Shown in pieces: positions 6,226 to 7,253 of a stretch of 64,000 nt of DNA. Position 1 is the stretch's first letter. Every line of letters starts with the position of its first letter. Under the pieces are notes generated by a model. It had not been told where the DNA came from and made no database searches. It saw only the letters and a program-made list of their open reading frames with translations. The stretch comes from Rhizobium jaguaris (lineage in GTDB: Bacteria > Pseudomonadota > Alphaproteobacteria > Rhizobiales > Rhizobiaceae): the NCBI RefSeq assembly GCF_003627755.1, contig NZ_CP032695.1:434001-498000 (forward strand), given 5' to 3'. Made by a program: the position numbers and the translations under genes.

Positions 6226-6416
6226 TTGTATAGCTAGAATCGTACAGTCAGCGTCGATGGGTAAAAAAGTCGGATGGAGCGAGCCGATACGCACTGGCCG
6301 GCTGTCGCTTAAGCGACAATGCAATGATTTGGGCTGTTTCCTTGTGGGGCGCAAGCGGTGCGGATTACACTCCTCATCCGCAAAAGTGGCCCCGACGAAG
6401 GACCCGCGACCATGTT

Positions 6417-6441
6417 GGAACAAACGACAATCGCTGACGTT
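6417..6441 (+). promoter_or_regulatory. EcfG-type (general stress) promoter A
   Basis: GGAAC at 6417-6421 and CGTT at 6438-6441, 16 bases apart, match the alphaproteobacterial sigma-EcfG/RpoE2 promoter consensus GGAAC-N16/17-CGTT. It faces away from the minus-strand operon and leads, after about 85 bases, to a strong terminator, with no sizeable ORF in between. Confidence 0.6.
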
Positions 6442-6447
6442 CATCCC

Positions 6448-6527
6448 TCGGCTGGATGAGCCGGCCAATTTAATGACATTGATGAAAACCCGTCGTTGTC
6501 GCCCCTCACGCCGACGGCGGGTTTTGT
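6448..6527 (+). ncRNA. Candidate general-stress small RNA A
   Basis: Predicted transcript of ~80 nt from the EcfG-type promoter at 6417-6441. It begins with a small hairpin (CGGCT 6449-6453 / AGCCG 6459-6463), has an AU-rich single-stranded linker (about 6465-6484), and ends in a 14-bp terminator stem (AAAACCCG from 6485 paired with CGGGTTTT ending 6525, two G-U pairs). Promoter, 5' hairpin, linker and terminator is the classic layout of a trans-acting sRNA. The terminator shares its stem sequence (CCCGTCGTTG / CGGCGGGTTT) with candidate C. No family name can be assigned by eye. Confidence 0.5.
6485..6527 (+). terminator. Rho-independent terminator of candidate sRNA A
   Basis: A 14-bp stem (6485-6498 with 6512-6525) with a 13-base loop, flanked by AAAA and TTTT, so it could also work on the other strand. 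Confidence 0.65.
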
Positions 6528-6581
6528 TATATCGCGCGAAGGTCGCGGTCGAAGGTCTTTCGCCTTGTGACCTCGGGAATT

Positions 6582-6607
6582 GGAACCAAAAGCTGCGATA
6601 AATCGTT
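6582..6607 (+). promoter_or_regulatory. EcfG-type (general stress) promoter B
   Basis: GGAAC at 6582-6586 and CGTT at 6604-6607 with a 17-base spacer, an exact match to the sigma-EcfG consensus. A start near 6614 would place it directly in front of a hairpin and a terminator. Confidence 0.6.
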
Positions 6608-6613
6608 AGTATT

Positions 6614-6688
6614 TCAGGACTTGTGTATTGCAAGTCACAATATCCGCACTCTCACTTCTAGCCCTGCTTACAACGGGGCTCTTTTTTG
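6614..6688 (+). ncRNA. Candidate general-stress small RNA B
   Basis: Predicted transcript of ~75 nt. It has a 5' hairpin (GACTTG 6618-6623 / CAAGTC 6631-6636), a pyrimidine-rich unpaired stretch (CACTCTCACTTCT, 6647-6659) that could pair with a purine-rich ribosome binding site, and a terminator (AGCCCTG 6660-6666 / CGGGGCT 6674-6680, then six T). The longest ORF inside is only a few codons. An exact EcfG promoter in front and a canonical terminator behind make an independent sRNA the simplest reading. Confidence 0.55.
6660..6688 (+). terminator. Rho-independent terminator of candidate sRNA B
   Basis: A seven-base-pair GC-rich stem (AGCCCTG/CGGGGCT, one T-G pair) with a seven-base loop, followed by CTTTTTT. 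Confidence 0.75.
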
Positions 6689-6799
6689 TCGAAGATCTTT
6701 GAGGCGGGCAAACCCCTAACACTATTGTGTTGGAATTCATTTCAGTTGAAAATGCATTGTTTGCCGCTGTGGCGATGGCGATGGGGCGAAAGAATTGCC

Positions 6800-7009
6800 A
6801 TGATCAAGGAGTATCTCAGCAAGCATGAAATGGCTCTGGATTCAACGGATTTAAACATCTGCCAACGCGCTTTTGATGCCATTTTGATCAAACTCAATGT
6901 TGCGCGCGATACCGAAGAAGCCGAGCAAATTGCGGCAATGGTCATTGAACTCTATCGGCAAGGGGTTCACGACGAAAATCAGCTCGTGACACTTGTCGGC
7001 GTCAAATGA
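6800..7009 (+). CDS. Small protein of unknown function, 69 residues
   Basis: The ORF is open further upstream, but the coherent helical protein begins at the ATG at 6800 (MIKEYLSKHEMALDS). It is acidic, amphipathic and lacks a signal peptide or membrane segment, ending in ENQLVTLVGVK. Its DNA is less GC-rich than the flanking catabolic genes. It sits between the stress-type units B and C, so it may belong to the stress response, but no exact EcfG promoter lies directly in front of it. Soluble helical proteins of this size are common hypothetical genes in rhizobia. I cannot assign a function. Confidence 0.65.
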   Translation: MIKEYLSKHEMALDSTDLNICQRAFDAILIKLNVARDTEEAEQIAAMVIELYRQGVHDENQLVTLVGVK

Positions 7010-7055
7010 CGGCAAGCATTAGCCTCTCCGGGGGGGCGGCAATTTCGCACGCAAT

Positions 7056-7080
7056 GGAACAAATCCCGCCGGTTGCTGTT
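7056..7080 (+). promoter_or_regulatory. EcfG-type promoter C (near consensus)
   Basis: GGAAC at 7056-7060 and TGTT at 7077-7080 with a 16-base spacer. It keeps the full -35 element and the TT of the -10 element (GGAAC-N18-TT) but has T in place of the first C. It precedes a third hairpin-plus-terminator unit. Confidence 0.42.
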
Positions 7081-7085
7081 TGGCC

Positions 7086-7170
7086 ATTGGTTGATAAGCG
7101 GCAGCGCTGAACAACCAGCCGTCACCAAAGCCCGTCGTTGGTCTGGCCCCCTCGCCAGCGGCGGGTTTCC
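7086..7170 (+). ncRNA. Candidate small RNA C, related to A by its terminator
   Basis: Predicted transcript of ~85 nt. The 5' hairpin pairs TGGTTG (7088-7093) with CAACCA (7112-7117) and contains an inner AGCG/CGCT stem. The 3' end is a ~15-bp stem (AAGCCCGTCGTTG from 7128 paired with CAGCGGCGGGTTT). CCCGTCGTTG, the CCCCTC loop and CGGCGGGTTT are shared with candidate A, so A and C look like duplicated copies. The T-run is weak (TTTCCCC). It could alternatively be just the terminator of the 69-residue gene. Confidence 0.42.
7128..7168 (+). terminator. Terminator hairpin after the small gene / candidate sRNA C
   Basis: GC-rich stem of about 15 bp with several G-U pairs between 7128-7142 and 7154-7168. 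It insulates the catabolic operon promoter at 7279 from upstream transcription. Confidence 0.55.
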
Positions 7171-7253
7171 CCGTAGGAATCTCCTGAAGCGGGAGTTGTT
7201 TGCACGGCTGCTTTCTGTCGACGCTTATTTTGGTCAGGCATGAATCCGGCGAA

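Follow-up and report, generated by a model that had tools for sequence, protein, structure and literature searches.

An intergenic stretch on the chromid of Rhizobium jaguaris CCGE525 contains a short element, here called unit B, which is probably the gene for a discrete small RNA (sRNA) of about 73 nt that would depend on the general-stress sigma factor EcfG and act in trans. Computed for this element are its anatomy, its conservation in three species, an RNA-type covariation, the co-occurrence of ecfG, nepR and phyR in this genome, and a number of diverged relatives which carry the promoter as well. The window, that is, the whole 64-kb stretch of DNA analysed, corresponds to bases 434001-498000 of the chromid.

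Location and anatomy of unit B

The genome of R. jaguaris CCGE525, a species listed in the current NCBI taxonomy as Martinezella jaguaris, comprises 8,025,568 bases, including a chromosome (C1) of 4,575,315 and a chromid (C2) of 2,584,926 bases, both covered by the published genome paper (PMC6395872). Unit B is flanked by a gene of the dihydrodipicolinate synthase family (minus strand) on one side and a DeoC/LacD-family aldolase gene on the other, and the same intergenic stretch also houses a second promoter unit (unit A) and an ORF of 69 aa (Table 1). This ORF is probably a gene separate from unit B. No Pfam or NCBIfam matches were obtained for it, and its family is matched in 139 of 148 genomes of the genus, with 1 to 13 matches in each, which makes it a widespread unnamed small protein.

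Genes for an ecfG-type sigma factor, NepR, PhyR and an HWE kinase are clustered on the chromosome near position 3,231,000; EcfG, NepR and PhyR are co-resident with unit B in one genome, as is expected of an EcfG-dependent sRNA, and unit B, being located on the chromid, does not lie beside the ecfG-phyR locus.

Table 1. Features of unit B and the neighbouring ORF (window coordinates)
Feature	Position	Strand	Basis or remarks
EcfG-type promoter GGAAC-N17-CGTT	6582..6607	+	exact match; invariant in 26/26 columns, three species
Predicted sRNA B, ~73 nt	6615..6687	+	fold and conservation; 5' end placed from the promoter
5' hairpin, 7 bp, 5-nt loop	6618..6636 (6618-6624 with 6630-6636)	+	fold, covariation
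Unpaired 23-nt linker, candidate seed CCGCACUCUCACUUC	6637..6659	+	core 6646-6658 invariant in three species
Intrinsic terminator	6660..6687	+	7-bp stem 6660-6680, six T 6682-6687
69-aa ORF	6800..7009	+	3' of unit B, syntenic in three species

The exact promoter, the 5' hairpin and the terminator had all been read from the letters in an earlier note on this DNA, and each of them was confirmed. Given the position of the promoter, the RNA would be expected to start at approximately 6614-6615, and the near-consensus promoter stands at the right distance from a short, terminated and non-coding unit, as is typical of the EcfG-sRNA class. Its spacer is one base longer than that of the R. etli EcfG1 motif, which has N16 (PMC3892343), and the two spacings are about equally common among terminator-bearing units in the 148 genus genomes (24 with N17 and 25 with N16).

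The predicted fold of 6615-6687 has a free energy of -18.9 kcal/mol (z -2.67; equalled by 2 of 200 shuffles) and ends in a U-rich tail, and similar folds are predicted for the orthologues in R. mayense and R. calliandrae (z -4.16 and -3.50, respectively). Mean pairing in the linker core of the 73-nt RNA is predicted to be 0.006 in R. jaguaris, 0.004 in R. mayense and 0.205 in R. calliandrae, which means that the core is open in the first two and mostly open in the third; the 3' arm of the terminator is paired with a value of 0.975. In a longer transcript covering 6615-6800, predicted pairing of the linker core rises to 0.550.

Conservation in close orthologues

Using blastn, unit B was found in three of the 148 genus genomes, namely R. 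jaguaris, R. mayense CCGE526 (G036) and R. calliandrae CCGE524 (G024), and the column counts that follow therefore describe a small sample consisting of close orthologues only. The promoter is unchanged across the three species even in the letters of its spacer, and so are all 13 columns of the linker core; over the RNA stretch as a whole (6611-6688), 64 of 79 columns are invariant. The corresponding values are 27 of 89 columns (30%) for the spacer between units A and B and 185 of 210 for the 69-aa ORF.

Unit A (6417-6526), with its promoter GGAAC-N16-CGTT, short hairpin and long terminator, is arranged in tandem with unit B and represents another sRNA candidate; its fold at 6447-6529 has a z of -3.56, and 21 of 25 promoter columns and 74 of 86 body columns are conserved in the three species. 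A further unit, C (7057-7175), in which GGAAC-N16-TGTT is followed by an inverted repeat resembling the terminator of unit A (CCCGTCGTTGG...), is less conserved than both A and B (19 of 25 promoter and 65 of 100 body columns).

Searches of reference collections added no further copies: in a plasmid collection, from which the records of the strain itself and of near relatives may have been left out, 8 records match the downstream ORF stretch and none matches unit B, and no part of the window reaches the gathering score of an Rfam family, with three sub-threshold matches over 6350-7250, none of them convincing. A pattern composed of the promoter and CTCTCACTTC was found in 43 stretches of the named genomes, two of which are the units of R. 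mayense and R. calliandrae; the other 41 were taken as chance occurrences, there being no terminator directly after the match (T-run cases and a stretch from Aquibium were inspected).

Chance expectation for single elements and for the complete unit

What exceeds chance is the complete unit B together with its conservation, not the promoter or the terminator alone. The bare promoter motif occurs twice in the window, as compared with 1.06 times in shuffles, 32 out of 100 of which contain at least two, and genome-wide it is found 113 times versus 178 for the reversed control, hence no excess. Terminator-like sites taken alone are equally unremarkable (5 between 4000 and 9000, versus 5.9 in shuffles). 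The promoter followed by CCCYG 30-60 bases further on occurs once in the window, compared with 0.10 in shuffled windows. Once the pattern is extended to the promoter, 30-60 bases and a GC-rich terminator with a T run, unit B becomes its sole match in the 8-Mb genome of R. jaguaris; the R. mayense orthologue misses this pattern by one base in the T run, and unit A falls outside it, its terminator being too long to fit.

Diverged relatives and covariation

With the promoter excluded, a covariance model (R1) was built from the RNA bodies of the three orthologues and searched against the 148 genus genomes, scoring at most 32 candidates in each. At E<=0.1, 22 matches were obtained among these best candidates, three of them belonging to the training set and 19 to other loci. 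An exact GGAAC-N16-CGTT stands directly upstream of all five best non-training matches (in genomes G013, G133, G027, G151 and G065; E from 5.9e-6 to 0.0045) and of these only; the other 14 have no exact promoter, although in three of them (G123, G016 and G086) a single letter of the -10 element differs. Since R1 was built without the promoter, its presence above the five best matches constitutes an independent test, the chance that 31 bases contain the exact string being about 0.0002 per match. The proposal of the earlier note, that this is a discrete sRNA unit with an EcfG promoter at its head and a terminator at its end, thus finds support in these promoter-bearing relatives and in the single full-pattern match in the genome.

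A second model (R2), built from six members, adds one locus in G132 and a second one in G133, both with exact promoters. Among its 37 non-training matches, an exact promoter is found in 5 when positions -45 to +20 are considered and in 7 when the range is widened to -60 to +45, these seven being G065 and G151 (also found by R1), G091, which is a TGTTCCTC unit of the kind described below, the members in G132 and G133, and G001 and G159. As only 7 of 37 carry the exact promoter, the limits of the family are not sharp, and it may be that the loci in G151 and G065 are EcfG sRNAs not related to unit B. On contig C9 of G133 (stretch L197, 1501-1620), a promoter, a hairpin and CCGCACT are followed by no terminator hairpin, and this locus is possibly a decaying copy.

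In the alignment of eight members, 6 of the 7 base pairs that form the 5' hairpin show two-sided changes, all scored cells are paired, and the covariation score was reached by none of 500 shuffles. This supports a structured RNA without deciding the matter, because the structure was used to fit the alignment and the hairpin is gapped in some of the members.

Beyond the genus, R1 was applied to 394 genomes from 109 genera of the family, with at most 12 candidates scored per genome. It yielded 9 matches at E<=0.02; no exact promoter accompanies any of these, and a variant differing by one letter is present in one case. Absence outside the genus is only weakly supported by this search because so few candidates per genome were scored.

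The conserved linker motif and possible targets

CCGCAC is located shortly 5' of the terminator in six of the eight aligned members, replaced by CTGCAC in R. calliandrae and by CCGAAC in G013, a count to be read bearing in mind that the models include this stretch and their matches are biased towards keeping it. The letters of the hairpin vary widely among the same eight members. Taken together, this points to the linker, and not the hairpin, as the putative working part of the RNA. As a bare pattern, the promoter combined with YCCGCACT is not enriched in the 148 genomes (15 occurrences versus 24 in the reversed control), for which reason CCGCAC can serve as a signature only among loci that share the structure of the family.

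The earlier note had also proposed that CACTCTCACTTCT is suited to pairing with ribosome binding sites, a guess for which no support was obtained. The linker contains no CCUCC anti-Shine-Dalgarno run, and the part conserved among the relatives is CCGCAC, which lies somewhat 5' of CACTCTCACTTCT. A complement of the invariant 13-mer, allowing for G-U pairs, occurs at 8 sites in the three species, 3 of which are the sRNA itself, while the contexts of the remaining 5, as judged by eye, differ from site to site. When the best duplexes of the linker with up to 132 mechanically defined ORF starts (from the window and the general-stress locus) were calculated, 135 of 200 shuffled linkers performed as well. 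Neither the complement search in the three genomes nor the duplex scan revealed a conserved or better-than-chance target.

Other EcfG-type units in the genus

A promoter followed by 30-60 bases and a GC-rich terminator was found at 25 places with the N16 spacer (in 22 of 148 genomes) and at 24 with N17 (in 23 of 148). These 49 units, many of which are mutual orthologues, compare with approximately 11 expected by chance, given how often the terminator pattern occurs in rhizobial DNA; this estimate was used in place of a reversed-pattern control, which gave 0 matches but is too lenient since the terminator is reversed as well.

Twenty-five of the 49 units have TGTTCCTC, allowing for one mismatch, within a conserved hairpin, in some genomes twice (e.g., G062 and G142), and look like one large family of EcfG sRNAs with an anti-Shine-Dalgarno-like loop. 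They resemble unit B in their EcfG-type promoter, their length of about 75-90 nt and their GC-rich terminator, but differ from it in the hairpin and in the placement of the pyrimidine-rich stretch, which in these units belongs to the hairpin region and in unit B to the linker before the terminator. CCGCAC or CCGAACT is present in four of the 49, namely unit B and the units of G133, G027 and G013.

Alternative explanations

The best rival reading, on account of synteny, is that the 69-aa ORF at 6800 is preceded by an attenuator-bearing 5' leader, namely unit B, with the promoter serving the ORF through conditional read-through, an arrangement that we consider unlikely. The two are adjacent in all three species bearing unit B, and the 111-base stretch that separates them shows fair conservation (87 of 112 columns), which an sRNA on its own would not require. 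However, among 30 inspected ORF loci (retained from the search that matched 139 of 148 genomes), an EcfG-type promoter is present at most 500 nt upstream only in the three orthologues, and the 27 other loci have none where about 1.6 would be expected from a background of 5.8%. The terminator is moreover predicted to form within the longer transcript as well (0.991 for pairing of its 3' arm), and in the one other promoter-bearing member inspected the ORF is not adjacent, the nearest one in G133 being located about 1.8 kb away.

That an EcfG-like string merely happens to precede an unrelated terminator, the stretch not being transcribed as a unit, appears more doubtful still: promoter and terminator are each common when taken alone, and the promoter and CCCYG pair is reached in 10 of 100 shuffled windows, but the joint pattern with the T run is unique in the genome, the promoter and linker core have remained unchanged in three species, and the promoter was found independently above the five best further R1 matches. 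A tiny mRNA, or a dual-function RNA coding for a short peptide, is the most improbable of the readings considered, as the GTG-started frame of 12 aa with a stop that lies inside the R. jaguaris unit lacks its start codon in R. mayense and its stop codon in R. calliandrae, and no other closed frame is present across the three species. An sRNA gene hence remains the preferred reading of unit B.

Proposed function and comparison with known sRNAs

We infer the following course of events for such an sRNA, each step of which is conditional. Under general stress, PhyR would release EcfG from NepR, and EcfG would then transcribe unit B from its promoter as far as the terminator; the ends of the resulting RNA would be shielded by the 5' hairpin and the terminator, and the open linker CCGCACUCUCACUUC would pair in trans with putative target mRNAs, most likely with the help of Hfq.

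A wider proposal, which we hold tentatively and with somewhat less than even confidence, is that unit B belongs to an undescribed and fast-evolving family of EcfG-driven 'CCGCAC' sRNAs of the genus, in which the hairpin would be freely rewritten while the promoter, linker seed and terminator are kept, and of which the genomes of some species would contain several loci. Accessory replicons might in this way possess a general-stress RNA arm of their own, whose target sites in mRNAs would be complements of CCGCACU.

EcfG-dependent sRNAs have been described in a few model strains. The orthologues in two named species, the defined promoter and the short invariant linker make stress control and targets of unit B directly testable, and the combined promoter and terminator pattern offers a simple way of listing candidate EcfG sRNAs across Rhizobium. 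Among the open-access papers listed in literature searches, none points in its title or opening abstract lines to an sRNA from R. jaguaris, R. mayense or R. calliandrae. The best reading is that of a new sRNA family of a known kind, represented by ReC64, GsrN and the RpoE2 sRNAs.

ReC64 of R. etli is an ncRNA of 88 nt whose control by EcfG was established experimentally and which adjoins phyR-tcrY (PMC3892343). By description, and not by sequence, it is similar to unit B as a short Rhizobium RNA with a promoter of the GGAAC-N16-CGTT type, and differs in lying beside phyR-tcrY, whereas unit B is on the chromid. R. jaguaris itself has, adjoining its ecfG-nepR-phyR-kinase locus, another unit headed by a promoter (L165, 7350-7512, minus strand), which contains a C-rich stretch, CACGCCCCC, as well as a terminator. 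It lies past the 3' end of the kinase gene and on the opposite strand, at the place that ReC64 occupies in R. etli, and its putative identity with ReC64 is positional only.

GsrN of Caulobacter is described as a sigma-T/EcfG-dependent sRNA with proposed relatives, located in C. crescentus away from the GSR locus (PMC5869019). According to that description it shares with unit B a general-stress sigma promoter, a 5' hairpin part, an exposed pairing region and a terminator, the difference being that GsrN exposes a C-rich loop and unit B would expose a CU-rich linker between two hairpins. In S. meliloti, 23 sRNAs with RpoE2 (sigma-E2) promoter motifs have been predicted (PMC3616915), and these are likened to unit B, again by description, in that orthologous sigma factors would drive both.
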